Of a stretch of DNA of 64,000 bases, positions 28,909 through 64,000 are shown in pieces. The stretch's first letter is position 1, and every line of letters starts with the position of its first letter. The position numbers were made by a program, and so were the translations under genes. The notes beneath the pieces were generated by a model. That model did no database searches. It had not been told where the DNA came from and was given only the letters and a program-made list of their open reading frames with translations. Origin of the DNA: a virus; IMG/VR virus record IMGVR_UViG_3300009788_000095, positions 33,540-97,539 of that record; one strand, given 5' to 3'.

Positions 28909-28972
28909 AGGGTAGGGGCTTGAGTAGTGATGCTCAACGCAAGGGTTGATTAGGGAGCTAAAAGGAAATTTT
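28889..28972 (+). ncRNA. Candidate omega-RNA / HEARO-type structured region
   Basis: Three nested hairpins lie between the previous gene and the IscB start: CTACCTTTA/TAAAGGGTAG (about 28894-28914), TTGAG/CTCAA (about 28920-28937) and CAAC/GTTG (about 28935-28948), ending at TTAGGGAGCTAAAAGG. IscB nucleases use an RNA encoded just upstream of the gene, with the guide at its 5' end, which would fall in the end of the preceding gene. The exact ends and guide cannot be set by eye, and the RNA may extend into the N-terminal coding region of iscB. Confidence 0.45.
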
Positions 28973-39420: not shown

Positions 39421-40368
39421 ATGAGAAACGATTTATTGTTGAAAATTGAATCTGGTGACGCGTTATCTGATTCTGAGAAACGTGAACTTTTCATGGAGAT
39501 GGGCAAAAACAGTCGTGAGGCTGAAGAGCTCAGAAAAGATTTCGCAGCGTCCAGGGGTGAGTTACTATTACCGGTATTAAGGCAACAATCACTAATTAGG
39601 CAAATATTTAGAGAATCTTTTACTAACGGACAACAAATACCTTATCCTATCAGATCTAAGAGGATTAGAGCTGCTTGGTTTATGGCTAGTATATCAGGTG
39701 TTCCACAAAGAACAGCTGAACAAGATGAGATGGTGTTTCCAACTTTTTATATAAAAGGTGGAGCTCGTTGGTATCTTGATTATGCTAGAGCAGGAAATTA
39801 CGAGTTAATTGAAGAACTCGAAAATGACCAAATGGACGAAGTAGCATACAAAGAAAATCTAGCCGGATGGACACTTATAAAAGCTGCTGAAGCTTCTGGT
39901 GACATGCTTGTCATTGATAAGATTTCTGCTGAGACAGGTTTCACAGTTAAAGTAATGGTAGAAATCATTACTAACTTGGAAGAGCAGGACGATAAGAGAC
40001 AGATATCAGATATATATCTTTCTCCGAGACGCTATAACGATATTCTCAATTGGGCTAAGTTAGACGTTGAACAGTTAGACGATGGCACAAGACGAGAGAT
40101 ATTTAGTAGAGGTCCTGAAGCTGTAGCCAATATTCTCAGAAGCTGGGGTGTAGCTTTTCATAAAGTTTTTGATCCTGAATTTGTAGATGATACTAAATGC
40201 TATTGTTTTCAAGGCAGTAGATTTGGTGTTATGCCTGTTGACAAGCGATGGGAAACAGTGCATGACGATCAAGCTAAGATGACCTGGGAAGATGGATGGA
40301 TTGGGCGTGAACAGGTTGGTTTCGGTATTACCGATTTACCATCTGGTTGCGTTTATAAATTTGCATAA
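39421..40368 (+). CDS. Major capsid protein, HK97 fold (315 aa)
   Basis: ATG at 39421 with a good AGGAGG site. After a helical N-terminus (1-50), the sequence has 'FRESFTNGQQIPYPIRSKRIRAAWFMA' (E-loop-like), 'WTLIKAAEASGDMLV' (spine helix), 'RQISDIYLSPRRYNDIL' (P-domain strand and helix) and the end 'GREQVGFGITDLPSGCVYKF', all usual for HK97-type capsid proteins. Position after scaffold and decoration genes supports it. A terminator-like hairpin follows. Confidence 0.82.
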   Translation: MRNDLLLKIESGDALSDSEKRELFMEMGKNSREAEELRKDFAASRGELLLPVLRQQSLIRQIFRESFTNGQQIPYPIRSKRIRAAWFMASISGVPQRTAEQDEMVFPTFYIKGGARWYLDYARAGNYELIEELENDQMDEVAYKENLAGWTLIKAAEASGDMLVIDKISAETGFTVKVMVEIITNLEEQDDKRQISDIYLSPRRYNDILNWAKLDVEQLDDGTRREIFSRGPEAVANILRSWGVAFHKVFDPEFVDDTKCYCFQGSRFGVMPVDKRWETVHDDQAKMTWEDGWIGREQVGFGITDLPSGCVYKFA

Positions 40369-45668: not shown

Positions 45669-46442
45669 ATGGCAGACAATGAGAAAAAATTGGCTGAGGA
45701 AACTAAAGAAACACCGACCGCACCTCCGGGATCACCAAGTCCAGAGGCTGCAACTACAGGTGAAGTTATTGAAGACGAAAAGGCACGTAAATTTACTTGG
45801 GTAGATAATCAGGGCGCTAAACTTAACCTAAATATTCGTAGGCCTACAGGTGAAGAAGTACAGGCTAGTGATTGGGAATATGCAAGGATATTTAACGAGG
45901 CTATCCAGGAAGGGATTATCCCGCGAGCTGCTCTTATTTCCATATTACAGGAAAGAGGTATCAACTTTGATAAACAGCAGGAAGAAGTAACTGTAATGCA
46001 GGATGAGTTGAATGCTTTAATAACTGAATTAGAGGAAGTTCGTAAGAAAGAGGATAAGGGTAAGGTTACTGAAGTAAAAGACGACATAAAGGATTTACGT
46101 GATAAGCTAATAGTTAAAAGGACTGCAATTTCTGATTATACGAGAAATTGTGCTGAGAGTATGGCAAATGATGCAAGAGATGTATTCGTATTAGCTACTA
46201 TTTTGGAAAAAGATGGAGAGTCTTTTTTTAATTCAAAACAGATAGGTACTAGACAGGCTATGCGGGAGAGATTGAAAAAGTTCCAGAAAGACGAATACAC
46301 TACACTACGGCTGCAGGGCTCTTATGAGTTTATGACATTTGCTAACGGGTTGCCTTCTAACTTTATGGAGCAGTTTCCAGAGAGACAATCAGAGAAATGG
46401 GAAACTACTACTAAAGGTAAACAGAAAGCTGCTAGTAAATGA
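45669..46442 (+). CDS. Tail assembly chaperone-like protein (257 aa)
   Basis: ATG at 45669 with AAAAAGGAG. After a Pro/Ala-rich start comes 'LNLNIRRPTGEEVQASDWEYARIFNEAIQEG', the 'RxPT..e...a...y...f..ai..Gi' pattern of tail assembly chaperones, then a long coiled coil (about 95-150) and a helical end. It lies two genes before the tape measure, the usual chaperone place. The next gene starts in a different frame with overlap ATGA; no clear slippery site is seen. Confidence 0.6.
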   Translation: MADNEKKLAEETKETPTAPPGSPSPEAATTGEVIEDEKARKFTWVDNQGAKLNLNIRRPTGEEVQASDWEYARIFNEAIQEGIIPRAALISILQERGINFDKQQEEVTVMQDELNALITELEEVRKKEDKGKVTEVKDDIKDLRDKLIVKRTAISDYTRNCAESMANDARDVFVLATILEKDGESFFNSKQIGTRQAMRERLKKFQKDEYTTLRLQGSYEFMTFANGLPSNFMEQFPERQSEKWETTTKGKQKAASK

Positions 46443-47479
46443 GTGTAGTCCTTAACGACGAAGAGGTAAGACTATATTTTTCAGAGATAGCTACTGGGAC
46501 AAGGACTATTACTGTTAAGAACAGTAAAGGCAAGGAACTACTAGGAATATTAAGACAACCTACCGCTCTAGAGTATAGAGTAGGGGCGGAAATATATAAA
46601 GATACTTTTGAAGATAGTATCGTTAACAATATAAGAACCAGAAAACAATTAGAGACTGATTTTATTAAACAGTATAACTTTTTAACTGAAGCAGAACTGT
46701 CTAAGCTCTCTAGGTTAGAATCAGAATTAAAGGTACTAAGAAAGCAATTAATAAGACTTTCTGGTGAGCCGATTTTAGTCAGGCAGAGAAGAGAAGACCT
46801 AGATAAGAAAGAAATAGAGTACTACACTTTATTTTCAAAAAGAGCTAAGTACTACACAGAAACAGCAGAGTATCAGGCTGAGTCTACAGAGATGTTTCAC
46901 TATGCTAAATTTTGTATATCTTTGTGGAAGACTACAGAAAGTTTTCTGGTCGAAAGAGATGATGTATTACGAAGACAAGCTATCCAACAACTTACTTCTT
47001 TTGTTCGCGGTTTTGATCAAGGAACCCTCAGGGCTTTAGCACGAAATCCTATTATTAGAACTCGGTGGAGAGCATCGAAAAAGACCGGTAATCCATTTTT
47101 TGGGATACCTATGCAAGGAGGAAATCAGTTTTTAGGTAGTCCTTCTGCATATTGGACACCAGATCAGATTGGTATGAGTTCCTGGCTTATGTACTATGAT
47201 GATGTTACTGAAGCTTTTGAGGCTCCGGAATGGTTATTAAAAGACGATGAAAAGCTTGACCGCTGGGTTGAGAAGAAAATGGAGGCCAAGGAGCGAGAAA
47301 GGATTAAAAAACTGGGTGTAGGGTCTGACAGAGATGCTTATGATCACGAAGAGGTTATTGTTTTTGGTGATGATAAGGATTTACTATTTGGCGAGGGTTC
47401 TCCTTATACGCCTAAATGGGATAAAGGAAAATCTGGAGATAATATTTCAGACCAGAAATCTATTTTAGGGAACAACTAA
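46439..47479 (+). CDS. Second tail assembly chaperone-like protein (346 aa)
   Basis: ATG overlaps the previous stop (ATGA). 'LLGILRQPTALEYRVGAEIYKDTFEDSI' echoes the RRPTGEEV... segment of the preceding gene, so both have related chaperone domains. A coiled coil (about 80-120) and a Trp-rich C-terminus ('WMxxYDDVTEAFEAPEWLL'-like) follow. Its stop is directly followed by the tape measure ATG. It may coat the giant tape measure before tube polymerisation. Confidence 0.6.
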   Translation: MSVVLNDEEVRLYFSEIATGTRTITVKNSKGKELLGILRQPTALEYRVGAEIYKDTFEDSIVNNIRTRKQLETDFIKQYNFLTEAELSKLSRLESELKVLRKQLIRLSGEPILVRQRREDLDKKEIEYYTLFSKRAKYYTETAEYQAESTEMFHYAKFCISLWKTTESFLVERDDVLRRQAIQQLTSFVRGFDQGTLRALARNPIIRTRWRASKKTGNPFFGIPMQGGNQFLGSPSAYWTPDQIGMSSWLMYYDDVTEAFEAPEWLLKDDEKLDRWVEKKMEAKERERIKKLGVGSDRDAYDHEEVIVFGDDKDLLFGEGSPYTPKWDKGKSGDNISDQKSILGNN

Positions 47480-50400
47480 ATGCCTGAAGAATTAATACGT
47501 ATTGATTTAACCGAGATGTCTGAGCTTAGGGACCTAGTTCAATCTTTACGTGGTATAAAAGATGTCTTTTTAACTTTCTCAAAAGCCGTGAGTACTCCGT
47601 CCGGAGGTAAAGCTACAGTAGGGGAAATATCAATTAAAAACCTCATTAAAAAGTTTGACCAAGAGTTTAGTGCTTTCACTAAAAAGTTTGGAGAAGGTGC
47701 TAAGGAGTTTAAGGTTAAAGGTATTGATGAGGCTCGCCGTAAAATTCAAGGTTTTTCCGGATCTATCGGTAAAATGGTCCAGGCCGTAGGAGAAATAGAT
47801 AAATCTATAAAATCTATAACAGCAGCAAGTCTTAAACTTAAAAAATCACCGGAACTTAAAAAAGCTAGAGATACCCTCGAAAAAGAATTAAATAATATTT
47901 TTACAAAGTATATGTCTTTAAATGTTGATGATGTTATTAGAACAGCTGAAAAAACAGGGAAAAAATTAAATGATTATTTTAAAACTATAAATGATAGATT
48001 GGCTGAAACTGGTAAGGGGATAGAAAAACAGATTCAAGATTTACCAAAACCTAAAGCTAAGGTTACTAAAGGTAGTCAGGGAGTTGTAGGAAAGGCTAAA
48101 GAAGGTATTAAGAAAATAGAAGAAAAAGAACAGACTTATATTTCAGAGCTGGACGAAAGAGTAACAGGTACCCTAGATGTTTTACATAAGAGATCTATAG
48201 ATCAAATAGATGCTTTGATTAAAGAAGTAAGAGGCACTACTCCTGCGGGGGCTACTGCGAGATTTGCTGAGGCAGGGAGAACGGGTGTTTTAAAAACAAT
48301 CAGCGCTATTAAGAAAGGTATTCAGATATCTCAGAAAGGGTTAACTAAGTTAGTAGATAAGGCTCTAAATTTACAGAAATTAAATGAAGTGATAGGTAGG
48401 AGTACAAAACAAGTTCAAAGACTTGAAAACGAGATTAAAAATATAGAGAGAACTATACAACCTGAGGAAGCTGAGGGTATTATAGCAAGACGGGAACGAT
48501 GGATAACAGCATTAAATAACCAGATTAAAAAGTTTACGGAAGCACGCACTACAGTCTGGAATGAAATAAGTAAGAAGTTGTCAAGTGCTGCTATAGGCGA
48601 TGTCAAAGAATTTGCAAAACTGTTAGAGACAATAAATGATATACGTTTCTACAGTAGACTTACACGTAGATTAGAAAGAAGGGGGATTTCTCCAGAATCT
48701 TTAAATCGTGTTAGAACAACATTCGGGGCATTTGAGTTTGAGGGGAAATTTTATGAGAATATTAATTTAATAACAAAGGGTCTTATTGCTACTGCTAAGA
48801 CCAGTGTAGAAGAAGTAGGTTTTGCTATCAGTGAGCAGATAGGCCAGTATGGAAAAACTGTAACAAAATTACGTTTGGGCTTTACGAGAGGAAGAGCCCC
48901 TAGAGAAATGTTTAAAGTTACAGAAGCTATTTCTGGTATTACACGAGGTTTAGGCGGATTACCTGGTGCTAAGTTTGGTAAGGTATCGGCAGGGGCAAAA
49001 GAGGATGTTGTTGGAAAATTATTAAACAGTATAGCTATGCAGGTAGCTCAACGAGCAAAGTCTGAGGTTAGTGTAAGCGGAATGGCAGTGAGCGGTTTAG
49101 ATGTAGAGAAAGCGGCTGATGAAATAGCTACAGCTATTATTACTCCTTTTTCAGGTTATTTGTTAGCTAAAAGGCCGGAGATAGGAAAAGCGGTTATACC
49201 CTCAGGAAGACCAGATTTAATGAAGCTAGATGATCTTGCCAGGTATATGGTTAGAGAAGCAATGCCTACGGCTATGAGAAAGAAGTTTCAGGTTACCATA
49301 AGTAAATTTTTTGAGCAAGCAGGTGATATAGGTAGAATAAAAACTGAATTTATGAGGGTTATGGGTATGGTAGGACCTGCTGAAACAGCAGGTGCAAGTT
49401 ATGAAGGTTATATACGGGAGATGGAAGCACAGGCTAAACTATTTATCGATCAACAAGAGTATACACGAGAGTTTGCGCCGACTATACAAGCAGCTATAGA
49501 TGCTTATATATCCGGAGGAAGTCAGGTATTTGAAAGAGTTGTAAATTTATTAAAGATACGAACACAGAAGTTTTTAGTTGAAATAATAAAGCTTATTCAG
49601 AATAGGGTTCAGTTACCTATTGCTGAAGCTATGGCTAAGTATAGAAAAGAAGTACAGCAGAGATTTGTTGAGATGCTGGTAGCGGGATTTAGGAAAGAAC
49701 AGGGAAAAGTACAAAAGTTAGCATCCGGTAGGGCGATGCAGTCTGGACTAATAAGCGGCGCATCGGCTACTGAAGAACAGTGGACAGCACCTTCTGCATT
49801 TTCGATTACAACTCCAGGACAGACACCAAAGATAGAAAGAGAGCTTAGGAGTATGATATTCAACCTGATGTCTTATTCCCTTAGGGGTAAGTCGCTAAAG
49901 GGCACTAGGTTTATCTCTGATTTTGTTCCAAAGATTTTAAAAGAAACGGAAGCTGCAGAAGTAGGTATGCCTGGTAAGCAATTAATAACAACACAGGCCC
50001 TAATAGAGAGAATAAAGACATCAAAAGGGGAGGATGCAGAACAAGCAAAAAGACTTATTGAACAGGTTACGGTGTTACCGGAAGAGGAGTTTAAAAGATT
50101 TAAATTTATAGCAGAGACCCTTAAGTTATACATTACAAAAAAAGGTGAGTTTACTAAAAGAGGGCAGGAGATGATGAAGCGTGTTATGGGAAATGCTAGA
50201 AGACTAACCAGAGGTGGCGGTATTTCTACACAATATCAATCTTTCTTGAAAGTGATGTTTGAGGAGGTTTTAAATATAGAGCGAGAAAGTGTTTTTGCTC
50301 AGATGATAGATCCTGCACAGATGGAGGCATTTTTATCTCATGAAAAGGTAGCGTCTCAAAAATTAGTAGCTAATATAGTTAGTAGGATAGAAAGGTTTCC

Positions 50401-53400
50401 GAAGGGTAAAATGAAAACAGGCCTTTTGACTTATGCTGATATGAAAGAGAGACAGAGAAAAATTGCGGAAGAAAAGTTAAAGCGGGTAGGTGATATTATA
50501 AAGAAATATACGGCTATTGGATTTTCACCAACTCTCATTAGGAGACTAATTGCTACGACTGAAAAAGAACAGGAAGTTTTTGATAGAGAAGTTGTGGCGT
50601 TAGAGAATGTAATTAAAAGAGGCGGTGCTGTAGCGTATGAGTATTTTCCTACGCAGCAGATTGTAGAAAAACATAGGCAGGAAGCATTAGCTATCAGGGG
50701 GCTTGAAGAGGCTGAGAATGTAAGTAATAAAAGACTACAGAGAGCTTTTCAGAAAATCAGTAAAGTATTTCAGGAAGGTGCAGGTTTTAAAGAGATAAGA
50801 CAAATGATATCAGATGTTTATAAAAGAGGAGATAGAGAAACTGTATCTCGCTACGATAAGGCTATAACCGCACTATCCTCTATACATAAAGAAAACATAC
50901 AGAATGTTGGTAAAATACTTATTCCTGCAATAGTGCAGTTTTTTGTAGGCGATATGGAGAACTTGGAGCAAGTATTAAGAACATTAGCTTTAATATCGGG
51001 AGGAGCTGCTACCGCAGAAAGGTACGGGTATATAAGGTCTTTAGTTGGTGAATTTTTAGGAATTTCACGAAAAGAGTACGGGCGTTTAGATAAATCTTTA
51101 AAATCAGGGAATAAGCAGGCAGTAAAGGCAGTTCGGGATAGATTAGTGACTTTATTTACTCCGAAGATAATGGATCTTGGAAAAAGTTTGGAGGATTTTT
51201 ATATACAGATGAGTGCAGACTTAGCTAATCTTGTTACTACAAACTTAGTTAGTTGGTTTACTGCTCAGAAAGAAGGGTTGGGTAAAACATTCGGTGCAAT
51301 AGCGATGCGTGTAAGACAGCTAGGCAGGATGCGTGTTAAAGGTGAAACTATAGGTATGATAGAGCCGTCAGGATTCTTACCAGGAACTACCGGAGAAATA
51401 CCTATTGAAACTATAAGACAAGAACAAAGATTATTAGGAGCAAGAGGAAGAAAACCGACAGGGGAGGTACCTGTTTCTTATGCACCGGCGGTTAAAGGGC
51501 TAGATGATATTCTTAGGGAGTTAACTGAAGAATTTAAACTAACTAAAGAGGCTGTGTCAGTACTTCGTGCCTTTATGGAAACTAAATTTTCAGGAAGAGA
51601 GGTTGTGGCTATACGTGGTAGAGCAGGAGTAACTACTCCAGGAAGAGGCGGGCCTTCAGCTTTTGGTGCTTTTGCAGGTAAAGATATTGAATATGGTTTA
51701 CAAAATATAGTAAAAGATTACATGAAACGGCTAGGCTATACTGTTGAGGGTAAAGCAGCAACAACTGGAACTAAAATACATGATATCTTAGAAGGTGTTT
51801 TTTTAGAGTACTCAAAGCGTATCGGAACTCAGATGGTAACTGAACAACCAGTAACAACTGTAGGTACTAGAGAAGGCGCTGCTGCTAAAACATCATTATT
51901 GGGTTTTGGTAGAATTGATATACTTGGTATATTTAAAGGTTACGGTGAGATATTTAAGGCATTAGGGGCTATGCCTGCTTTAGTAGATATTAAGACAGTA
52001 ACTCGTCTTGAGGCTTTTGATGCAGAGGGATTTAAGACTCAGATTAGTGCGTATGTAGAAATGTTTAAAGTTTTGGTAAAGATGAATCCTGATAAATATC
52101 CTGAACTACAAGATGCTTTAAAACTAATGGGCGGTAGGGAAGTTACTGCTGTACGAAACTCCATTGTAAATATTCAAAGTATTGTTAAGGATATTACGCA
52201 GTTACAAGCTGCGGCTCTTGTTATAGATAGGGAGGCATTTGAGGCAGCTATTAAAAAAGCCGGTTTTAAGAGTATTGATCAACTAAGGTTTTTGGTATTA
52301 GCCGGTAAAATAACTAACGAGCAGGTGAAACGACTTATAACGATTGTTAATCAGGTAGGTAAGGTTGAGGTTTTTGGTTTAAAAGATTTGCCTGATATTG
52401 AGAGATTGATGATTCCTGCTTATAGAGCAATAGTGGCTTTTGAACAAGTTAATAAAGTGTTAGGTAATATTTCCGGAGAAATAACAAAGAGGTTTGTAGA
52501 ATATAAAGGTAGACGTGTAGAGCATATAGACGAGGCTCTTCTTGCTAAAAATTTAGGGGAGCTAGGGTTGCCGTTTATTAAAGATGCGGAAAAGCTAAAA
52601 AGGGTCGCAAAAGAACAAAAGGTATCTATGGGAGAAGTAAAGGATGCTATAAAAAGAGCAACTGTAACGGTAACTAGCCAAGTTCCGGAACGTGAATTTA
52701 AGGATTTTTATGCACAGTTAAAAGAGAGGTTACTGACACAATTAAAAACTTTAACTGGTTTTTCTAATATAAAACAGTATTTAGGTGAATATATCGGTAG
52801 GCAGCAGATAGGTGGTAGGGCAGGTGTTGCTGCATTGCCAGCACCAGGAAGGGTAGGGGTAGAAAAAGAGAGAGTGCAAGTATCAGCTGAAACAGCAAAA
52901 ATGACGGGTGAAGAAGCAAAGGCTTACGGAAACATTATAGGAAGTGTTGAAACTTTAACCGGTAAGTTAAAAGAAAAGACCGGCGCTCTTGAAGCAGAGA
53001 TGGCTATTTTAAAGGAAGAAGCTACTATTTTTGTTTCAATTACACAGACAGCGGAAAGTTTGGTTAAGTACCTGAGAGGTACAGAGAAATTATCTTCTGT
53101 AATTAAATCAGCTTCACAGGTTCTTAGCTTGTTTGGACTGAGTGAGAAAGAGGTAGGAAAAGTAGTTAAAAACTTAGGAAAAACTGTCGGAAAGATGGAA
53201 GAGTTAAAATCAGCAACATCTAAGGTAAAAGATACTGTGGAAGGTACAGCTCAGGGATTTGATAGAGTAAATAAAAGTGCAACTGATTCGTCCAAAACTA
53301 TAGATGATATGCTGGGCGGTATGTTTAATTTAGGTAGCGGGACTGCGAGTGTTGAAGAAAAGATTAAGTCAATGACAAGTGAAGCAGGCAGGTACGCTAC

Positions 53401-56400
53401 TATGATGAACAGTGCTGTTACTTTTTCTAAAAATGAATCTGCAAATAGAGAGCAGATTAAAGCTAAGCTTAGTGATGCTTTATCACATATTGAAAAATAC
53501 GAACAGTTAGCGAATAGGCTTTCAGAACATTCTAAAAATAATGTAGATGCAGCTAAAGCGGAATTTACAGCACGTCAGAGAATTGCACAGATATACGAGC
53601 GTGCTTCTGAGTTTGGATTAAGGACGGAATCTGAACTAGCAGAGAAGATAGATCTTAGAAATAAAAAACAACGAGATTTATCAAGACAAGCTAATGAGTA
53701 CTTTACACAGTTAGGTAGGATCAGAACTGCATCTGCAGACGCTAACATACCCCTACATGAAAGACTTGAGAGTCTTAGAGAGGCTATACGTGCCTTAAAT
53801 CAGTATGCAGACGTAGTTAAATCGCTTTCTCAGGTTGAGGGAGAGGGCTTAGCAACAGCATCTAGACGACAACAGTTTGCAATGCGTAGATCTCAGATAG
53901 GGGAAGCTTTAGGGGGATTACAAGCAGAGTTTAAGAGAGGGGCTGATCCTGCAGGGGAATTAACGAGACATATAGGGAAGCAGATATCGCAGTTTAATGA
54001 AGAAATGTTATTATCTGGAAGAGCTTATGCTCAATTAACTAAAGAATCAGGAGGGGCTATAAGAGAAAACTTAAATGTGATTCGTAAAGTAACTGATCAA
54101 CAAGGTAAGCAGCTACTTATGGTTGAAGGTATAGCAACAGCTCAGGGTAAAGTAACTACACAGGTAAAAGAGACAGCATCTGTGTATGCTGGAACTGTAG
54201 CTAATCAGATGAAAAATATTATGGCTAGACTGGCGAAGTGGGGGAGTGGTGCTTTTTTATATTTTGGTGTTATGCGTGGTGCTAGGGATGCTGTTCGTGC
54301 AATAACAGAAATGGAAAGCGCTATTACTTCGTTAAGGCAAGTTATGAATCAGTCTAATACTGATTTTATGGCTATGTCAGAGCAAGCTTACGCTCTAGCT
54401 GTGTCCTACGCAACACCTATTAAAGATTTAATGAAAACTATGTTAGAGTTTGCGCGGCAGGGCCTTAACCAGGAAGAGGTAATAGAGGCTTCACGGGTAG
54501 CTACTCTAGCAGCTAATGTAACAGTCTTAAATGCAACGCTGGCTATGGACACACTTACAGCTGCTACACGTCAGTATAATATATCTGCAATGGATTCTAT
54601 AAAAGTTCTTGATGCCTGGAATTTAGTAGCTAATAGGAATGCTGTTACTGCAAAGGATTTGGGTGGGGCGATGAAACAGGCAGGTAGTATAGCTAAATTA
54701 ATGGGGCTTGGTTTTGAGGAACTCACAGGTATCATGGCTGCATTACAGGAGACTACCAGAAGAGGTGGACCTACAATCGGACGTGCAATTAGGTTTATGT
54801 TAGTTCATTTAAGAACAGATGAAACAGAGAAAGCTTTAACTGATTTAGGTATTTCTATAAGAAAGACAGCCGGAGAATATAGAACAGCTTCATCTGTATT
54901 TAAGGAAGTAGCTGAGAGGTGGAGAGAATTAACAAGTGCTCAAAAGTACCAAGTTTCTTATGCTATAGGGCACGTAAGGTTTGGTGCATTTGTAGCTGCA
55001 ATGTTTGAGAATTGGGCTAAGGTTACTAAAGCTACAACAGAAGCTACTTACGCTCATGGATCTGCAATGGCAGAAAATGAAATAGCTATGCAGGCGTTTA
55101 AGAAACAAGTAACAGGTTTACGTAATGAATGGGAGGCTTTTATTTATTCTTTTGGTAGAACAGGTATCTTAGGTATACTACGTGGATTTCTTTCAATAGG
55201 TAAGGGTATCTTAGGTGTATTTGATAAACTGCCAGGGGTTATAAAGACTACAATTTCTGTCTTGGGTACATCTGCTGTTTTATTTATGGGACTTAGTCGA
55301 TTTTTACGATGGTATTTTAGTATTGATTTATCAGATGTTATTCGCAGGTGGGGATTAAGAGCGGCAGGAAAAGAGGCGGCAAAAACTATAGGTTTTTTAA
55401 AGAATGTTTCTTCAGTAGCTATTGGTAAAAATATATCTGAGACAGAAACACTAGCAATGGCACAAAACACAGTAACAGGATCTGTGCAGGGAACAAATGT
55501 TTTATATACTACGAGTCTTGGCCTCCTTAACTCTATGACTTTAGCTACAAGGGAGTTAGCGGTTGCTCAGGGTTTAGTTACTGGGGGCACGACAAAAGTA
55601 GCTATGCAGACGTTACCCTCTACCCTTGTGATGCAAAGAGGGAGACTTGCACCTACTTCAGCAAGAACGATAAAGGAGAGCGTAGCAGTAGCGGGTACGG
55701 GTGCAGCAGTCAAAAGATCATTATTTCAGAAGAGTACTTTTAGAGAAACATTTCGTGCAGCTAGGGTATCCGGGAAAGCTACAGGAAATAGATGGGGTAA
55801 TGCTTTTATGGCTGCAACCTGGTTAAGGGTTAAGGGTTTAGGTAAGGGATCTTTTTGGAAGGGTTTAGGTTTAGCTTTAACTAAGGTAGGAGGTACTTTA
55901 GCAGGATTTTTAACTAGTCCTCTTGGGATTGTAGCGGCAGCTATAGCAGGTACTACAGCAGCCCTATGGGGATTTAGGAAAGTAACAGATAACACATCTA
56001 AAATTATAATTGAAAAAAACAAAAAGTTAATTAACGAACTTCAGCAGTCTTTAAATGAGGCTAAAATAGCTATTGTTTCTTATACAACGGCTTTAGAGAA
56101 TATCGCTACGGGTGCTAGGGTTGATTTAAGTGCTATTGAAAGGGAGAAGAAATTAAGATCAGATATAGCTTCCCGGTTTCCTGGGTTAGTGAAAGGTTAT
56201 ACAGATTACGGGGATGCTATTCTTGAGTCTTCAAACAGGGTTGGTGTACTTAAAAAAAGAATGGAAGAGTTAGCCACAGTAAAAGCTGTAGAACTAATAG
56301 GTATACAGTTAGAGGAAGTTAGTGTTATATTAAGAGATCTATCAGACCCGAGAGTAGGCAGAAATATTTTAACTTATTTACCGGCCAGTCTGGGTTTGTT

Positions 56401-59400
56401 GGATAGTACTATAGACAAACTAAGAAAAAATATTAAAGAATATAATAATCTACGAGAAGCTTACAATGAGGCATTTAAAAGAGGTTATGATGTTACTACT
56501 ATTAGAAAAAATATGGGTGAGATTGCTGAGGAGATTAGAGAGGGAACCAAGGTAGTAAATACTTCTTTTATTCAGGCAGAAAATAGAATGAGAAGTATAG
56601 CAAAGATGGGCGGAACTGCTGCAGTTGAGGCAATTGGGAGGGCATTACAAACAAACTCATCAAATCTGGAAATTTATATAACTAGTATAGTTCAAAGTTT
56701 AGGTACGGAAGATGTTTTAAAAGGATTCAGAGCATTTTTTGTTAAAACATTTGGCCCGGACTTAGGTACGATTATAAAAGATTCTGTTAGGAATATACCT
56801 TTACCAGCTTTAAAAGAGTCGGCGGAGGCTATATCAAAAGCTATTTCCGATTCTTTATTAACAAATATAGACGTTAAGGGGTCTACCCGAAAGGCAGTTA
56901 GAAAAATAGTTAAAGATTTAGAAGATGCGATTAGGGGTGAAGATTATCAGGAAGCTTTGTTATCGGCTATGGAAGGTATATATGAAATCAGGGGAAAACT
57001 AAGCGATAATGCGGTACAGAAATTAACTAGTAAGATGGGCGAGTTTGCTATAGTTTTCGCAAAAAAGATAGAAGGCGATGCGAAAGAACATAGAAAAATG
57101 TTTATTAAGACTACCGAGGGGTATGCTATAATAGATGAAGAAGCTATAGCAAACATATTTGGAGGTAAAGATATAGATTTAGAGCTTATTAAAAAGAAAA
57201 AAGAATTTATAATGAAATACAAAAAGTCTGGCGATGTGATTGATATGATTGAAGAAATGCAGCGAGAGAAAGGTAAGTGGGAAGGAGATACATACGTTAT
57301 TAAAGTAGGTATTAAACCAGATGAAGTATACTTTAATAAACTTAAAGTGGCGATGGACGCTGTTAAGGGTTATTCTGCATACCTTAAAGTGATGGATCAG
57401 TATTTAACTGGAATTAGTGCAACAGAAAAAAACAGAGTAAGTATGATGAAGGATGCTTATTCTATAGGTACGAAGTCAGCAAAAGAATACGCTAATATAC
57501 TTGATGCTTTGGAAATTAAAATCAAAAAGAACTTAAGTAGGTTTGGTGGTTTAATGGGTGCTGGTCCGGAATTTAAAAGGGAGATGCTTGATATTACAAG
57601 ATTAAGAGCAGAAGCAGAATTAACTGTTAATAAGTATAATCAGTGGCGTTCCTTAAAGAATAGAATGTTAGCAGATCCTGCAGCATTTCAAAAGGATACA
57701 CACGCAGTAAGAACCTTTAAGAATTTAATAGGAGATATCCAGGCTAGTTATAAAACATTACCGAGAGAAGCGCAGGAAATGTACAGGGGTGTTTTTAAAG
57801 ATATAGATAAAGTTTTAATCGATGAAGACCAGGTAGAGAAGAATAAAGAAAAGATTTTAGGTGCAATTAGGGATATAGCTGATAAGGCTAAATATAAAGG
57901 TGTATTAACTTTTGAAACAATTGATACACGTGTTTTTGATAAAGCCATAGATGAAATATATAAAAAGTTTAGGGACACTTCAGCCCTTACATCAAAAGAC
58001 GTAGAAAGTATAATAAATAAAATCCCTATAGATACAGGGGCTGTAATTAATGCTGAAATAGATAATATGAGAAAAAAAATAAATACGATGAAGAAAGAGC
58101 AGTTTCCCGGGCTATTCGGTACTATTTCAGAAAGTGACATAAATTATTTTAAACAGCTAAATACGCTATATGGAGAATTAGAGAAAAAAAGAAGAACTGC
58201 TAAGGTTTTAGGTAAGGCTTTACCATTTATTCCTAAAAAAACTGATTTAGATGCAGTTAGTAAATCTCTAGATAGTTTAATAAAAGAACATGGAGCAAGA
58301 CTTGCATCAGGAGTTTCAGTAGATATTAGTAAAAGTGTTTTACCGCGTTTGAAAAAAGAGTTAGAAGCAGTGCAACTGATGAAAATGGAATTTAAATTAG
58401 ATGAAGCACAGGCCGCTAAGCAGGCAGTAGGTGCGGCTGAATTATTTAAATCCGCTTTTACAAGAGAATTACATGAGAGGGTAGGAGAAGAAGCAGGAGG
58501 AAAACTTGCTTTAGGTACAGTAAAGGGGCTTCAGCGTGGTTTAACGGTTTTAGGAGGTACTAATTTTTATAGACTATTAGCAGGTACAATGAAGATAGAT
58601 AAAGTAGCTAATCAGTTAATAAGATCAGGTCAAAAAGCATTTGAGAAAGCTAGTAGAGGACGAGGTGGTACTGATACGATGACTGCTATACTAGGTTTAA
58701 CTCAACAGAATATAGGCGAAGCATTAAGGACAGCTAATTTAGGAGGAGTAGCTATAAACGCAGCTAGTCAGATATGGGATGAATATTTAAGCAGGGCCAG
58801 GGACGGAAGTACAGAGAGTATTGCAGTTTTTACAGAAACAATAAAAGCTTTTTCTAAGGCCGCAGGGAATACAACGGGAGAAATGTTAGACAACATAACA
58901 AAACAAATGGAAGAGGGCATGAGGCCTGATGTAGCTTTTATGGATATGGTTAAAAGCCTTGGTTTAGCCCCTGAGGATTTAAGACTTATACAACAACAAT
59001 CAACAAAAATGCTTTCGACTATTACAGCTATACAGAAGGGTATGGGAGATGCAGCGAGTGACTACTCTAAGTCTTTAACAGAGTCAGGTAAAAAGTCTAG
59101 ACTGGAAATAGTTAGTTTGTTAAGTGAGTCTTTAAATATAGCTAAATATTATGAAAAAAGAAGAGACGAGGCTATAAAGGACATGAAGGAGTATGTAACT
59201 ACTCTAGTAAGCTATAGTAAAGAATTGACTTCTGGAGTAGGTGTGTCTTTTGCTGAATTTTCAGAAAAGATGGGTGGGCATCTTGGTGGTATACGTAAGA
59301 TGTTAAATATATTTTCAAAATCTACTGAAGCAGAAGTAAGAGGGTGGGCTAAAGCTTTAAAGGAGATTTTAGGTAGAAAGTTTGTAGAGGCTTTTACAGG

Positions 59401-62400
59401 TTTTAATATCCAGGCGATAAAGCAGTCTATTAATGCAATAAGGGATGCCTTAGCTACTGAAGAATTTGAAGAAACCGGTTACGCTGGCATGACAGCATTG
59501 GCGAGTCAAATAAAGAAATTAGGTATAGCTTTAGCTAAAACAGCAATAAAGTTCCCAGAAGTTAAAACGTGGGGTAAAATGGTTAAGGAGGCTTTTGATA
59601 AAAAGACAGTGGCTGAAGCGGAAGCAATGGGAAAAGCATTAATAAAGTTAGGAAATGAAACAGATGAGTTACGTAAGAGGCGGGATTATTTAAAAAAAGG
59701 ACCACCTGCAGGGGCAAAGGTTATATTTTTTGATCCTGCTAGTGTTAACGAATTAGATGAACAAATAAAACAGAATGAGATACGCTACACTAGGTTAAAA
59801 ACTCAACTAGTAGCAGGATCTACAGCAATGAAAAGTTATTTTGAGGATACGTCGAAAGAATTTAATGAGTTATTTAGGGTACTTGGTTATACAGATAAAC
59901 AGATTAAAGTATCTGATAAAAATTTACAGGCTTTAGGCTTAACAGGTATACGGGCAGCTTATGCTGTTATTCAGCAGCAGATTAGTTGGATTAAAATGAA
60001 TAAGTCTTTATCTGATTTTGTAACAGTTGCTGACCTGTACACAGATATAGGTTTGGTAAATAGAATAGGTGAATTGACTCCTGTTATTTCTGCTACAGAA
60101 GAAGTGCTTACCGCATTAAAAAAGGAGTATATAAGTAACACTGAAAAGTTAAGGGAATACACGGAACAAACAGAAGATTTTATTAAAGTGCAAGAGAGAC
60201 AAAAAATAATAGTGGAAACGGTAAAAGATGTAGAGAACTGGAGGGAAAGATTAGTAGGGTTTGAAAGTATGAGATCTTCGTATTCAGATTTAAATAAAAG
60301 TTTAAATTTATTAGATGCTCAAACAAAGGTATATCAGTCTAGTTTAGATTCTGTAAGTAAAACTGCTGATTATTTTAAAACAACAATTGATAAACTGATT
60401 GAATCTTCATTACGTTCCGGAGAGTGGGGTTGGGATAAAGTTCCGCCACTTATAAAAAGCTCTATAAGTCAGCTAGAGTCTTACTACTCAGAACTGTTAG
60501 CTTTACAGAGACAGCAGGATGTTATTTATAACCAGGTAGATAGACTAGGCGATGCATGGGCGGATGCACTGCATGCCCCTGATGAAGAACAAACACTTTT
60601 GAAGTCTATAACAGATAGTTTTAAACAATTAAGAAGAGATGCATCAAGAAATTTTATACAGCCTGTTCTTGATGACTGGAAGAACTTATTTGCTGGAACT
60701 GTACCTATCAAAGATATACAAGTAGATGCAAGTGCGGAAATAAAGTTTATAGTAGCAGAGATTAAAAGATTAGAAGAAAATATTAGAAGCGAGAAAGGTG
60801 TATTCGAGGAAGTTTTTTTAGGTGATCTAAAAAAGGCATTAGGTATTTTAAATGAGAACGACACTATACAAGCACTTAATAGCATGAGTAAGGTTATTAA
60901 CAATATATTACTGGGTAAGGGGGGTGTGGTAAGTGCACCTGTACCCCTTAAAAAGGCAAGTGGGGTTGTACTAACTGCTGCTCAGGGAGTAGTGGATGGA
61001 AGGTCTGGAGGTCAGTTAGGTCACGCTGTAGCTAAGGAAGGTAGTGTTTTAGCTGAACTTCATCCAGGAGAAATAGTTGTACCAGCTCGGTTAGCAGGAG
61101 GGGTACCCTCTTACATAACTAATCAATTACCTGTTTATGATGGATTTTCTTCAGGGATACGTATGGCTGAGGGTGGTGTATTAACCGAAGAAGAAAATCT
61201 TAAAAAAGCAAAACAGGTTGCTGATAGTTTATTTAATAAAGGTCTTTTTCTGGAAGCTGTATCTGCGTATAGAGGTATACTAAAGGTAAGGCCTAATGAT
61301 CGGGATGTTAATTTAAACCTTAATAGATTACTAAGTCAAAATGCCTTTAGTGATCCTTCTATAAAATTAGAAAGAGAAAAAGATATAGCTAAACACCCCG
61401 AGATAGAAGAAAAAATAAAGGAGGCTAATCTTCTCTACAGATCACAGGAGTATAAGAAGGCGCTTGATATTTTTACAGGCATAAGGTTTAAATACAAAGA
61501 TATTGAACAAGATAGTAAGTGGCTTACGTATGGTTTTATAGAGAGGATAAAGACATTTATTGAATATAATAAACCCGGGGATGTAGCAGGTCTGATTAAG
61601 GAAAAGCCGGAATTAGGTAAGGCTCTTGATCCGCGGGATATGAATTTAGAGGATGTAGAGTTGTTGGCACGAAGTTCTTCAAGTAAAAAAGAATTGAAAT
61701 CTATACTGAGTGAGATACCCCTGGATAACCATAATGTTCGTTTAGGTATGGAATCTTTGATAAAGGAGAAATCTTATTTTTATAAATTATTTGAAAGGCT
61801 AAAAAAATGGGGTGCAGTTAGGTCTGAAGTAAGTTTCGCAAAAGAAATGATGAAGTCACTTAATAAAGAAGCTGTAGTTGATTACTTAGGGATAGAAAAA
61901 TTTAAGAGATATTTTCCTAAGATACCAATTACTAGTCAACAATTTGCTTCAGGTATTAGAATGGTTGAAGGTGGACAGTTACCCTTACCCAGAGCAGCAG
62001 TAAGAGGAAGATTTACACAGGAGGAAAAAGAGAAACAAGCTGAGAATCGTTGGAAAGTAATGGCAAAGATAGCTTCTGCAGCTTGGAAGTTGGGCGGAAA
62101 AGGTGTTACAGGGTTTATGGGTTTAATAAGTTCTGCTCTTAAGAAAGAGATAACTCTTCCTGAAATGAATAATCAGTTAACTAAAGATCAGTTAGAGATG
62201 AGGGACGCGATAATGCGTGGTTTCGGAGGTAAGTATAAAACAGCAGATACGAAAACTGACCTTAATTTTTGGAAAGATGTATATAGGGGTTTAGGGATTA
62301 TGGGTAAAGGTCTTTCTACGGGATGGAAGGGATTTATTAAATTTATAAAAGATCATATGAGTTTAAAAGAAATATATTTAGGTGCTAGGGCACAGCAAGG

Positions 62401-64000
62401 GCAACCAACTGCACTTGATATAGCTGCTGGTCGTGCTTCTGGTTTACGTTTATCTGAAGGTGGACAGTTAGGCCATGCTGTTGCCGCTGCGGGTGAAGTA
62501 GCTGCAACATTACATCCAGGTGAGATAGTTGTACCGGCTCATCTTGCAGGGGGAGTGCCGTATAATATTGTAAATAAGTTACCGGTTTATGACGGGTTTT
62601 CTTCCGGTGTACGTATGCAGGGCGGAGGTAGTATAGGGGGGGTTACTGAAGTTAAAAGTGAATTAGATAAATCTTTTGCTAAGTTAGTGATAGGTTTTAA
62701 AGCAGCTGCATTGAACATGGAAGTATCAGATAAGGTTTTTAGACAGAATTTGGAAGCTCAACGGAGTACTAACAGGAGCATGGAAGATGTAGGCAGGAAC
62801 ATGGAGGTAGTAAGTAAGGGTTATAAAAAAAGAGCTGCTGTTTCTGCTTCTCCTGAGGATAGTAGGAGTAGTGCTATACGCATAGATACAGACAGTATGG
62901 TTTCTAAAGGCAGTGTAGGTGGAGGAGGAGCTTCTCTAGAGATAGGTATGGTTAAAGCTACAGATGTTATAAAAGGATTTAATACTATTCTAAGTAAACA
63001 GGAAGACAAAGTTAAGGAGTTAACAGACGCTTATACAAAACTTAAACAAGAAACAGGCGATCTTAAAACAGCTTCTAAAGAGGCGAAGGAGGCATTAGCA
63101 AAAGCTGATTGGGAGAAAGCTATTAATCAAGTTGGATTAGGTTTATTGCATGCGACTGAATTTGTTGCTAAGAAGGCTGAGCCTGTGCTTGTGGGTGGTT
63201 TTCAGGCAATAGTAGCCGGTATGAGCGGAAGTGCTGAAGTGTTAGCTATGGCTAGAGAAAAGTTAGGGGTAGAAATGGGTAAGCGTGAAAAGCAAGTTAG
63301 AGAAGAATTAGCAGGGAAAGCTGTAAAGAAAGAGGAAAAGAAACAAGTAACAAGAAGAGCTACTGAAATAACAGAAACAATAGGTATTCAAAAAGCCTCC
63401 GGAATAAAAATGCATTTAGGAAAGGCAGAAGGGGAGCGAAAAGACATAAGCCTATCAGCAGAAGACATGGTAAAGACAGTAATGCTAAGTACAGAGGACT
63501 ATGCAAATGCCTTGTCTAATTTAAGAGACCCCGACACTGTAGATGCCCTGAATGCTTTACAAATTCAAATGATAGGGGTTAGCGATAAAGCTTACAAAAC
63601 AGCAGAGGCTGAACTTGTGAATGCTAAGGCTAAAAAAGAAGCTGAAACAGCGACTCAGAAAGCTAGTGAAAAACAGTTAGAAGCTGCGAAAAAAAGTGAT
63701 GCTTTTGGAAAAGCTATGGGAACGGTTATTGCAACGCTGGAGGTTGGTATAGGTCAGCAAATGATGAAGGATTTTAAAACATTAGCAGAAGATATAAGTT
63801 TAACAATCGGCGGAATAACACTTCAAGGGACAGGTAAGACAACAGGTACCCGAATGAAAGAAGCCGGATTAGAAGACTTTCAGATGAAGACTGCTGCAGA
63901 TAGGCCAGAAGTGCAAGAATCTGTTTCTGGAGGAGGTGCGGTTGGTGCGGTTGTAGGTAAGCAGCTAGGTACTACTGCGGGTGCAGCTCTAGGGGCTGCA
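47480..64000 (+). CDS. Giant tape measure protein, 3' end cut by window edge (at least 5,507 aa)
   Basis: From ATG 47480 one frame stays open to base 64000. Its start follows the chaperone-like genes, the usual place. Regions seen: helical start with coiled coils (1-700); a PD-(D/E)XK nuclease motif set (about 1430-1530); the phage tape-measure core (about 2256-2620), including 'EFARQGLNQEEV', 'AKLMGLGFEELTG' and a hydrophobic membrane stretch; a second hydrophobic stretch (near 2790-2840); long helical repeats; TPR-like helices (about 4570-4670); and two copies of 'HPGEIVVPA' (His 4528 and 5012). Length predicts a tail of at least about 0.8 micrometre. Start has only a weak AGGG site. Confidence 0.85.
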   Translation, partial: MPEELIRIDLTEMSELRDLVQSLRGIKDVFLTFSKAVSTPSGGKATVGEISIKNLIKKFDQEFSAFTKKFGEGAKEFKVKGIDEARRKIQGFSGSIGKMVQAVGEIDKSIKSITAASLKLKKSPELKKARDTLEKELNNIFTKYMSLNVDDVIRTAEKTGKKLNDYFKTINDRLAETGKGIEKQIQDLPKPKAKVTKGSQGVVGKAKEGIKKIEEKEQTYISELDERVTGTLDVLHKRSIDQIDALIKEVRGTTPAGATARFAEAGRTGVLKTISAIKKGIQISQKGLTKLVDKALNLQKLNEVIGRSTKQVQRLENEIKNIERTIQPEEAEGIIARRERWITALNNQIKKFTEARTTVWNEISKKLSSAAIGDVKEFAKLLETINDIRFYSRLTRRLERRGISPESLNRVRTTFGAFEFEGKFYENINLITKGLIATAKTSVEEVGFAISEQIGQYGKTVTKLRLGFTRGRAPREMFKVTEAISGITRGLGGLPGAKFGKVSAGAKEDVVGKLLNSIAMQVAQRAKSEVSVSGMAVSGLDVEKAADEIATAIITPFSGYLLAKRPEIGKAVIPSGRPDLMKLDDLARYMVREAMPTAMRKKFQVTISKFFEQAGDIGRIKTEFMRVMGMVGPAETAGASYEGYIREMEAQAKLFIDQQEYTREFAPTIQAAIDAYISGGSQVFERVVNLLKIRTQKFLVEIIKLIQNRVQLPIAEAMAKYRKEVQQRFVEMLVAGFRKEQGKVQKLASGRAMQSGLISGASATEEQWTAPSAFSITTPGQTPKIERELRSMIFNLMSYSLRGKSLKGTRFISDFVPKILKETEAAEVGMPGKQLITTQALIERIKTSKGEDAEQAKRLIEQVTVLPEEEFKRFKFIAETLKLYITKKGEFTKRGQEMMKRVMGNARRLTRGGGISTQYQSFLKVMFEEVLNIERESVFAQMIDPAQMEAFLSHEKVASQKLVANIVSRIERFPKGKMKTGLLTYADMKERQRKIAEEKLKRVGDIIKKYTAIGFSPTLIRRLIATTEKEQEVFDREVVALENVIKRGGAVAYEYFPTQQIVEKHRQEALAIRGLEEAENVSNKRLQRAFQKISKVFQEGAGFKEIRQMISDVYKRGDRETVSRYDKAITALSSIHKENIQNVGKILIPAIVQFFVGDMENLEQVLRTLALISGGAATAERYGYIRSLVGEFLGISRKEYGRLDKSLKSGNKQAVKAVRDRLVTLFTPKIMDLGKSLEDFYIQMSADLANLVTTNLVSWFTAQKEGLGKTFGAIAMRVRQLGRMRVKGETIGMIEPSGFLPGTTGEIPIETIRQEQRLLGARGRKPTGEVPVSYAPAVKGLDDILRELTEEFKLTKEAVSVLRAFMETKFSGREVVAIRGRAGVTTPGRGGPSAFGAFAGKDIEYGLQNIVKDYMKRLGYTVEGKAATTGTKIHDILEGVFLEYSKRIGTQMVTEQPVTTVGTREGAAAKTSLLGFGRIDILGIFKGYGEIFKALGAMPALVDIKTVTRLEAFDAEGFKTQISAYVEMFKVLVKMNPDKYPELQDALKLMGGREVTAVRNSIVNIQSIVKDITQLQAAALVIDREAFEAAIKKAGFKSIDQLRFLVLAGKITNEQVKRLITIVNQVGKVEVFGLKDLPDIERLMIPAYRAIVAFEQVNKVLGNISGEITKRFVEYKGRRVEHIDEALLAKNLGELGLPFIKDAEKLKRVAKEQKVSMGEVKDAIKRATVTVTSQVPEREFKDFYAQLKERLLTQLKTLTGFSNIKQYLGEYIGRQQIGGRAGVAALPAPGRVGVEKERVQVSAETAKMTGEEAKAYGNIIGSVETLTGKLKEKTGALEAEMAILKEEATIFVSITQTAESLVKYLRGTEKLSSVIKSASQVLSLFGLSEKEVGKVVKNLGKTVGKMEELKSATSKVKDTVEGTAQGFDRVNKSATDSSKTIDDMLGGMFNLGSGTASVEEKIKSMTSEAGRYATMMNSAVTFSKNESANREQIKAKLSDALSHIEKYEQLANRLSEHSKNNVDAAKAEFTARQRIAQIYERASEFGLRTESELAEKIDLRNKKQRDLSRQANEYFTQLGRIRTASADANIPLHERLESLREAIRALNQYADVVKSLSQVEGEGLATASRRQQFAMRRSQIGEALGGLQAEFKRGADPAGELTRHIGKQISQFNEEMLLSGRAYAQLTKESGGAIRENLNVIRKVTDQQGKQLLMVEGIATAQGKVTTQVKETASVYAGTVANQMKNIMARLAKWGSGAFLYFGVMRGARDAVRAITEMESAITSLRQVMNQSNTDFMAMSEQAYALAVSYATPIKDLMKTMLEFARQGLNQEEVIEASRVATLAANVTVLNATLAMDTLTAATRQYNISAMDSIKVLDAWNLVANRNAVTAKDLGGAMKQAGSIAKLMGLGFEELTGIMAALQETTRRGGPTIGRAIRFMLVHLRTDETEKALTDLGISIRKTAGEYRTASSVFKEVAERWRELTSAQKYQVSYAIGHVRFGAFVAAMFENWAKVTKATTEATYAHGSAMAENEIAMQAFKKQVTGLRNEWEAFIYSFGRTGILGILRGFLSIGKGILGVFDKLPGVIKTTISVLGTSAVLFMGLSRFLRWYFSIDLSDVIRRWGLRAAGKEAAKTIGFLKNVSSVAIGKNISETETLAMAQNTVTGSVQGTNVLYTTSLGLLNSMTLATRELAVAQGLVTGGTTKVAMQTLPSTLVMQRGRLAPTSARTIKESVAVAGTGAAVKRSLFQKSTFRETFRAARVSGKATGNRWGNAFMAATWLRVKGLGKGSFWKGLGLALTKVGGTLAGFLTSPLGIVAAAIAGTTAALWGFRKVTDNTSKIIIEKNKKLINELQQSLNEAKIAIVSYTTALENIATGARVDLSAIEREKKLRSDIASRFPGLVKGYTDYGDAILESSNRVGVLKKRMEELATVKAVELIGIQLEEVSVILRDLSDPRVGRNILTYLPASLGLLDSTIDKLRKNIKEYNNLREAYNEAFKRGYDVTTIRKNMGEIAEEIREGTKVVNTSFIQAENRMRSIAKMGGTAAVEAIGRALQTNSSNLEIYITSIVQSLGTEDVLKGFRAFFVKTFGPDLGTIIKDSVRNIPLPALKESAEAISKAISDSLLTNIDVKGSTRKAVRKIVKDLEDAIRGEDYQEALLSAMEGIYEIRGKLSDNAVQKLTSKMGEFAIVFAKKIEGDAKEHRKMFIKTTEGYAIIDEEAIANIFGGKDIDLELIKKKKEFIMKYKKSGDVIDMIEEMQREKGKWEGDTYVIKVGIKPDEVYFNKLKVAMDAVKGYSAYLKVMDQYLTGISATEKNRVSMMKDAYSIGTKSAKEYANILDALEIKIKKNLSRFGGLMGAGPEFKREMLDITRLRAEAELTVNKYNQWRSLKNRMLADPAAFQKDTHAVRTFKNLIGDIQASYKTLPREAQEMYRGVFKDIDKVLIDEDQVEKNKEKILGAIRDIADKAKYKGVLTFETIDTRVFDKAIDEIYKKFRDTSALTSKDVESIINKIPIDTGAVINAEIDNMRKKINTMKKEQFPGLFGTISESDINYFKQLNTLYGELEKKRRTAKVLGKALPFIPKKTDLDAVSKSLDSLIKEHGARLASGVSVDISKSVLPRLKKELEAVQLMKMEFKLDEAQAAKQAVGAAELFKSAFTRELHERVGEEAGGKLALGTVKGLQRGLTVLGGTNFYRLLAGTMKIDKVANQLIRSGQKAFEKASRGRGGTDTMTAILGLTQQNIGEALRTANLGGVAINAASQIWDEYLSRARDGSTESIAVFTETIKAFSKAAGNTTGEMLDNITKQMEEGMRPDVAFMDMVKSLGLAPEDLRLIQQQSTKMLSTITAIQKGMGDAASDYSKSLTESGKKSRLEIVSLLSESLNIAKYYEKRRDEAIKDMKEYVTTLVSYSKELTSGVGVSFAEFSEKMGGHLGGIRKMLNIFSKSTEAEVRGWAKALKEILGRKFVEAFTGFNIQAIKQSINAIRDALATEEFEETGYAGMTALASQIKKLGIALAKTAIKFPEVKTWGKMVKEAFDKKTVAEAEAMGKALIKLGNETDELRKRRDYLKKGPPAGAKVIFFDPASVNELDEQIKQNEIRYTRLKTQLVAGSTAMKSYFEDTSKEFNELFRVLGYTDKQIKVSDKNLQALGLTGIRAAYAVIQQQISWIKMNKSLSDFVTVADLYTDIGLVNRIGELTPVISATEEVLTALKKEYISNTEKLREYTEQTEDFIKVQERQKIIVETVKDVENWRERLVGFESMRSSYSDLNKSLNLLDAQTKVYQSSLDSVSKTADYFKTTIDKLIESSLRSGEWGWDKVPPLIKSSISQLESYYSELLALQRQQDVIYNQVDRLGDAWADALHAPDEEQTLLKSITDSFKQLRRDASRNFIQPVLDDWKNLFAGTVPIKDIQVDASAEIKFIVAEIKRLEENIRSEKGVFEEVFLGDLKKALGILNENDTIQALNSMSKVINNILLGKGGVVSAPVPLKKASGVVLTAAQGVVDGRSGGQLGHAVAKEGSVLAELHPGEIVVPARLAGGVPSYITNQLPVYDGFSSGIRMAEGGVLTEEENLKKAKQVADSLFNKGLFLEAVSAYRGILKVRPNDRDVNLNLNRLLSQNAFSDPSIKLEREKDIAKHPEIEEKIKEANLLYRSQEYKKALDIFTGIRFKYKDIEQDSKWLTYGFIERIKTFIEYNKPGDVAGLIKEKPELGKALDPRDMNLEDVELLARSSSSKKELKSILSEIPLDNHNVRLGMESLIKEKSYFYKLFERLKKWGAVRSEVSFAKEMMKSLNKEAVVDYLGIEKFKRYFPKIPITSQQFASGIRMVEGGQLPLPRAAVRGRFTQEEKEKQAENRWKVMAKIASAAWKLGGKGVTGFMGLISSALKKEITLPEMNNQLTKDQLEMRDAIMRGFGGKYKTADTKTDLNFWKDVYRGLGIMGKGLSTGWKGFIKFIKDHMSLKEIYLGARAQQGQPTALDIAAGRASGLRLSEGGQLGHAVAAAGEVAATLHPGEIVVPAHLAGGVPYNIVNKLPVYDGFSSGVRMQGGGSIGGVTEVKSELDKSFAKLVIGFKAAALNMEVSDKVFRQNLEAQRSTNRSMEDVGRNMEVVSKGYKKRAAVSASPEDSRSSAIRIDTDSMVSKGSVGGGGASLEIGMVKATDVIKGFNTILSKQEDKVKELTDAYTKLKQETGDLKTASKEAKEALAKADWEKAINQVGLGLLHATEFVAKKAEPVLVGGFQAIVAGMSGSAEVLAMAREKLGVEMGKREKQVREELAGKAVKKEEKKQVTRRATEITETIGIQKASGIKMHLGKAEGERKDISLSAEDMVKTVMLSTEDYANALSNLRDPDTVDALNALQIQMIGVSDKAYKTAEAELVNAKAKKEAETATQKASEKQLEAAKKSDAFGKAMGTVIATLEVGIGQQMMKDFKTLAEDISLTIGGITLQGTGKTTGTRMKEAGLEDFQMKTAADRPEVQESVSGGGAVGAVVGKQLGTTAGAALGAA
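51767..52060 (+). other. RecB-type nuclease domain inside the tape measure
   Basis: Within the tape measure frame: 'GTKIH' (His 1434), 'GFGRIDILG' (Asp 1480), 'LVDIKTV' (Asp 1503, Lys 1505) and 'QISAY' (Gln 1521, Tyr 1525). These are the GxxxH, GxxD, DxK and QxxxY motifs of RecB/Cas4-like nucleases in correct order and spacing, the same set as in the separate gene at 13197-13964. Confidence 0.7.

Follow-up and report, generated by a model that had tools for sequence, protein, structure and literature searches.

A giant tape-measure gene with a predicted nuclease-like domain ahead of its core in an uncultured phage lineage

Introduction

The tape measure of the longest-tailed phage bears an enzyme, and an enzyme–tape-measure fusion is therefore the nearest precedent for the locus described here. 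In Thermus phages P23-45 and P74-26, the tape-measure protein gp96 comprises 5,002 aa with an RNA polymerase fused on its N-terminal side, and tail length exceeds 800 nm (PMC10770324, PMC9022992, PMC10034513). The tail of P74-26, at nearly 1 µm, is the longest known (PMC10034513), and P23-45 possesses both a virion and a non-virion polymerase (PMC10770324). P23-45 was the only described case we found of an enzyme of nucleic-acid metabolism fused to a tape measure, and our search of the open-access literature returned no report of a tape measure that exceeds 5,002 residues or that contains a nuclease domain.

Tape-measure size scales with tail length, and published pairs from phage G, phiL47, Hotorobo and P23-45 give 0.147–0.162 nm per residue (PMC8570332, PMC3888941, PMC4982279, PMC9022992), in agreement with the value of 0.15 nm assumed in a preliminary description of the present locus. 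Very long tape measures and tails have also been reported for the Gordonia phages Hotorobo, Woes and Monty (3,327 aa, 540 nm; PMC4982279), yet these proteins reach half the length of the one studied here. SPbeta YomI and the tape measures of Lactococcus phage phiL47 and Bacillus phage BcoS-136 (2,285–3,275 aa) share a homologous core with our protein (21–27% identity), preceded by 300–660 residues. The nuclease-like pattern that we describe below was not found in those related frames that we scanned.

Here, we analysed a stretch of 64,000 nucleotides (positions 33,540 to 97,539 of the IMG/VR virus record IMGVR_UViG_3300009788_000095), referred to as the window throughout.

Results

A 5,507-codon frame without a stop occupies positions 47480–64000 of the window (+ strand), and its ATG directly abuts the stop codon of the upstream gene (46439–47479). 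The frame runs up to the window edge, which is also the end of the 97,539-base virus record, and so the gene is truncated by the contig. Codon-position GC content (~0.47/0.38/0.26) was coding-like from the start to the end of the frame, which, together with the open frame itself, bears out the single uninterrupted frame noted in the preliminary description. The same gene is present on a near-identical IMG/VR contig (IMGVR_UViG_3300024265_000030; 180,316 bases), hereafter the sister contig, with 17 substitutions in 16,521 bases. Following the gene to its stop codon, as had been advised earlier, was possible on this contig, where it ends at codon 6,434 and yields a protein of 6,433 aa. The window thus holds the 5′ 5,507 of 6,433 codons; the gene does span at least 16.5 kb as previously claimed, but this visible length is incomplete and the whole gene is 17% longer.

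Only seven differences separate the two contigs over the window's first 50 kb, and against this background a cluster of differences inside the tape-measure gene stands out: eight of the 17 fall within window positions 51700–51710 (+), where the window reads TTTACAAAATATAGTAAAAG and the sister contig TTTTAAAATATAGTTAAAAG. In the sister contig, two compensating one-base shifts at this site turn codon 1410 into TAG and divide the gene into frames of 1,409 and 5,019 aa, just upstream of the GxxxH motif of the nuclease-like domain (see below). A stop codon, which the preliminary description regarded as an argument against so long a gene, is hence present in the sister contig at codon 1410 and absent from the frame in the window. 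From these sequences, some members of the population may have a divided gene, with the open form more likely representing the normal state. Besides, all 17 differences in the last 16.5 kb lie within the tape measure (window 51029–61937), a gene that seems to vary faster than its surroundings within the population.

The tape-measure core reported previously was recovered at residues 2305–2492 (54392–54955, +), a stretch that matches PF10145 (E=3.4e-27; score 96 bits, cut-off 33.2) and aligns with SPbeta YomI, phiL47 and BcoS-136 (alignment A1). PHROG 4211 matched with E=3e-78, and in all, a dozen PHROG tape-measure families had matches. The hydrophobic segments that had been noticed were likewise found, at residues 2562–2611 (55163–55312, +), 2803–2833 (55886–55978, +) and 5236–5258 (63185–63253, +), all three C-terminal of the core. 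Further downstream of the core, a motif of the form GGQLGHAVA..HPGEIVVPA.LAGG.P can be read twice in the translation, at about residues 4510–4565 (61007–61174, +) and 4994–5049 (62459–62626, +). Similarity to ordinary tape measures is confined to residues 2063–2739, and the core alignment starts near residue 2,240 of the window protein. Among 79 other core-bearing loci in a first scan, the longest frame measured 3,587 aa, and no more than 848 residues lay ahead of the core. For the N-terminal extension of our protein (residues 1–1312; 47480–51415, +), we found neither relatives nor an RNA-polymerase motif. A search for relatives among known phages at the DNA level returned none.

Residues 1313–1652 (51416–52435, +), ~740 residues upstream of the core and in one frame with it, are predicted to form a Cas4/RecB-like PD-(D/E)XK nuclease-like domain. 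The pattern G-x3-H, E, G-x-x-D, D-x-K-T, Q-x3-Y is complete in the window (G1430, H1434, E1455, G1477, D1480, D1503-x-K1505-T1506, Q1521 and Y1525). Searched directly, this region of the window protein matched the exonuclease family phrog_298 (E=5.9e-4); no Pfam model scored above its cut-off for it, and no relatives of the region emerged from a protein search of 50,697 phage records. When the window was aligned with 20 relatives (alignment A4; ~15–20% identity), the invariant positions consisted of one Gly plus the PD-(D/E)XK set G-H, E, G-D, D-K-T and Q, and an N and the Y were nearly invariant across the 21 tape measures. The A4 profile matched Cas4 structures in the PDB (4ic1, E=9e-4; weakly 4r5q, E=0.13), and PDDEXK_1 matched three alignment members. 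A profile built without the window row scored the window region at a modest 12.6 bits, compared with a best of 2.6 bits in 200 shuffles, and over the full 6,433 aa it scored highest at residues 1426–1549. The position of the domain is conserved as well, with a distance to the core of 737 residues in the window and 589–774 in relatives.

AlphaFold modelling of the nuclease region gave an unusable model from the single sequence (pLDDT 41). With 21 sequences, confidence was still low (pLDDT 48, pTM 0.28), and only the helix-strand-strand-strand-helix order fits such a nuclease, with the residues in the expected places; Foldseek found nothing with this low-confidence model. The active-site residues are the same in order and identity as those of Cas4 and RecB-type nucleases (4ic1, 4r5q; PF12705), but, unlike in these enzymes, the domain is embedded in a tape measure, and since the window part of the protein is devoid of cysteine, it cannot possess Cas4-type FeS cysteines. 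Taken from its sequence, this tape measure probably also carries a DNA-cutting enzyme.

The tape measure is the longest tail gene and stands in a series of plus-strand genes in the order terminase–portal–head–tube–two chaperone-like genes–tape measure. The terminase large subunit (31743–33581; phrog_2, E=1.7e-25) is ~30% identical to that of Bacillus phage Slash, and is followed by the portal protein (33592–35730; phrog_2739, E=3.5e-17) and the major head protein (39421–40368; phrog_2522, E=9e-7). Position and conservation suggest that a 566-aa protein (43599–45299) is the tail-tube protein, although without relatives in 50,697 phage records, without a family assignment and without a PDB match to the profile of its family. 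The next gene encodes a putative tail assembly chaperone (45669–46442), as judged from its position and cross-matches with relatives; it resembles the following gene (46439–47479), a second putative chaperone whose stop abuts the tape measure. Neither the contractile sheath (PF04984) nor Baseplate_J (PF04865) was detected in any of ten records of the lineage defined below, while the controls matched, which makes a non-contractile tail likely.

Just upstream of the terminase gene resides a complete IscB system (28890–30319, +). Its HEARO (omega) RNA spans 28890–29118 (Rfam RF02033, 116.7 bits), and its protein matches solved IscB structures (E about 1e-38). Because the RNA overlaps the start of the listed IscB frame, the true start is probably further downstream. 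Elsewhere in the window, a ParB-like protein is encoded on the opposite strand (16447–17373, −), adjoining a 450-aa protein without a family match.

Using a profile of the putative tube protein (A2) as a marker, we retrieved 57 viral loci, and a tape-measure core was present in 34 of the 50 records examined. Twenty-nine frames were inspected in full, 20 of which are complete and longer than 6,900 aa (one of these, G027, has ambiguous bases, and a few are near-duplicates). Most tape measures of the lineage measure ~7,000–8,250 aa. One reaches 13,616 aa: on a 211-kb phage contig (G046:74903–115753; L156–L158), a single open frame of 40.9 kb, with coding-like codon composition and no repeats, contains both the tape-measure core and the polymerase motif described next, and may rank among the largest phage genes. 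In three relatives, the frame spans 3,382–3,903 aa and contains neither polymerase nor nuclease. Extreme length is a trait of this lineage, beyond the single contig with which we began. A relative of the putative tube protein was traced to only one 20-kb contig from a Gammaproteobacteria MAG, too weak a link for naming a host.

DxDGD marks the active site of the RNA-polymerase beta-prime subunit. At least 23 relatives carry the sequence LD[FY]DGDxIxxH ahead of the core, and PF00623, the Pfam domain of that active site, matches the pre-core region in eight of 20 members (best 5.8e-5). The pattern D[FY]DGD....H occurred in one of 2,000 shuffles of a polymerase-bearing protein, and the relatives, as P23-45, have an R-x-P motif ahead of DxDGD. 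An apparent two-barrel RNA polymerase is thereby predicted for most relatives, whose usual order is RNA polymerase (DxDGD)–nuclease–core–ruler, with 815–1,032 residues from polymerase to nuclease. The relatives' polymerase region had no match in PDB and PHROG searches, and that of one relative had none among 50,697 phage records. In three polymerase-bearing members (G023, G048 and G046), the nuclease pattern was not detected. Conversely, the N-terminus of the window protein showed no DxDGD motif and no hidden polymerase, and PF00623 had no match in G000 or G001. Relative G004 may resemble the window in having a nuclease without a detectable polymerase, but its nuclease match, though plausible by eye, lacks significance.

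At 0.147–0.162 nm each, 6,433 residues predict a tail of 943–1,044 nm. Given that homology is limited to residues 2063–2739 and that a nuclease-like domain sits in the first ~2,240 residues, however, not all residues can be assumed to act as ruler. Discounting residues 1–1652 lowers the prediction to 701–776 nm, and counting only the core and the C-terminal part gives 615–681 nm, from which we infer a tail of about 0.6–1.05 µm. The preliminary estimate of at least ~0.8 µm, among the longest tails, is thus in line with accepted scaling, but would drop to only ~0.6–0.8 µm if the N-terminal part did not measure. Among the core homologues, BcoS-136 departs from the nm-per-residue scale: its tape measure has 2,792 aa, while a 145-nm tail and a 59-nm head were reported (PMC6483233). 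Such a head seems too small for the 160-kb genome of this phage (vB_BcoS-136, MH884508), and the measured particle and the genome may be mismatched.

Discussion

We consider it likely that the window encodes a giant ruler that also carries enzyme cargo to be injected with the DNA, as has been proposed for the polymerase of P23-45. The gene product would be the giant tape measure of a phage whose tail is long and non-contractile; its core and the ~3,800 residues that follow would lie inside the tail tube and set tail length. The region before the core would serve as a cargo segment that includes the Cas4/RecB-like PD-(D/E)XK nuclease domain. Elsewhere in the parent lineage, a two-barrel RNA polymerase would usually precede the nuclease within this cargo segment, reminiscent of P23-45; the window virus may have lost the polymerase, may never have had it, or may harbour a version too diverged for detection. 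During infection, the tape measure would exit the tail before the DNA, so that the nuclease enters the envelope or cytoplasm of the host. Catalytic activity and injection are predictions from the sequence, as is the biological target: the delivered nuclease would probably act on host, competing or the phage's own incoming DNA, be it by attacking host, plasmid or prophage DNA or by processing the phage's own ends.

Like the window protein, P23-45 gp96 is a giant tape measure with an enzyme on the N-terminal side. However, this enzyme is an RNA polymerase and no PD-(D/E)XK pattern was found in gp96, whereas the window protein has a predicted nuclease and no polymerase motif; gp96 is also 1,431 residues shorter. 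Profile comparison gave no signal of similarity between P23-45 and the polymerase region of our lineage. A second, free-standing polymerase match in G048, above the Pfam cut-off, recalls the two polymerases of P23-45.

As the source is a metagenome contig and the frame runs into its end, a duplication or chimera during assembly could have lengthened the frame artificially. Yet, neither long or tandem repeats nor self-similarity were found within it, so that assembly duplication is not the cause of its length, and a tandem duplication or assembly repeat was rejected on this ground. Moreover, a second contig is 99.9% identical across the gene, relative G004 has the core and the extreme C-terminal end arranged as in the full-length protein, and equally long frames exist in distant records. 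An artefact is thus largely refuted and, in our view, hardly credible. The sister contig raises the separate question of whether the locus really consists of two genes, the continuous frame of the window being a minority or assembly variant. The TAG at codon 1410 does occur in a contig of 180 kb, and an ATG near the nuclease motifs follows five codons later. On the other hand, this arrangement requires two compensating shifts inside 11 bases, the shifted segment lies where the protein aligns with the relatives' nuclease domain (positions 76–98 of A4), and all 20 complete relatives have a single uninterrupted frame, which renders two genes quite improbable.

The tail itself might be contractile, with the 566-aa protein as its sheath, since in phage G a 579-aa sheath precedes the chaperones and the tape measure has 2,893 aa (PMC8570332). 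The failure of both PF04984 and PF04865 to match where controls did, and the fact that the homologues of our core are siphovirus tape measures, make this very unlikely. Somewhat more has to be said about the possibility that all residues, including the N-terminal 2,240, simply measure, in which case the nuclease-like motifs would be decayed or structural and the tail ~1 µm long. Whole-protein scaling agrees with the known pairs, and in TM4, deletion of 114 tape-measure residues with an enzymatic motif shortened the tail by ~20 nm (PMC1796659), implying that embedded enzyme segments can count as ruler. Still, the exact catalytic residues are kept across very diverged tape measures, as would be unexpected for decayed or structural sequence, and relatives of the core mostly have just 300–850 residues before it. 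We therefore deem a mere ruler unlikely and favour a ruler with enzyme cargo.

A broader proposal, which we put forward tentatively and would not yet call probable, is that the whole uncultured lineage has tails of at least 1 µm (about 2 µm for the 13,616-residue member) and uses its tape measures as carriers of injected enzymes, in which a virion RNA polymerase is followed by a Cas4/RecB-like nuclease just ahead of the core, the window variant delivering the nuclease only. If so, a nuclease delivered by a tape measure would constitute a new phage route for attacking or protecting DNA during entry. While P23-45 already provides one tape measure with an enzyme fused to it, we found no report in the open-access literature of a nuclease as cargo or of a length above 5,002 aa. 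With this lineage, the largest known size moves up from 5,002 residues to 8,252 or more, and probably to 13,616. The lineage further suggests that enzyme–tape-measure fusions are widespread in uncultured phages, with the nuclease as a second type of cargo. Since the relatives have a core in common, flanked on each side by sequence whose length varies by thousands of residues, whether length alone sets the tail when part of the protein is a folded enzyme can now be tested.

The sister contig also covers other tail genes. A giant one (L007:5317–11868) encodes 2,183 aa with a tail fibre PHROG match and is related to a tail protein of Microcystis phage MaeS. Downstream of the tape measure (L007:14551–17195), a gene for a 460-aa protein whose N-terminus is discoidin-like and which contains several dozen CxxxC repeats overlaps that of a 431-aa radical SAM/SPASM enzyme, which matches the CXXX-repeat target maturase family (TIGR04115; E=8e-102; score 341 bits, cut-off 350). 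This pairing suggests a phage tail protein that is chemically modified, possibly by thioether bridges.
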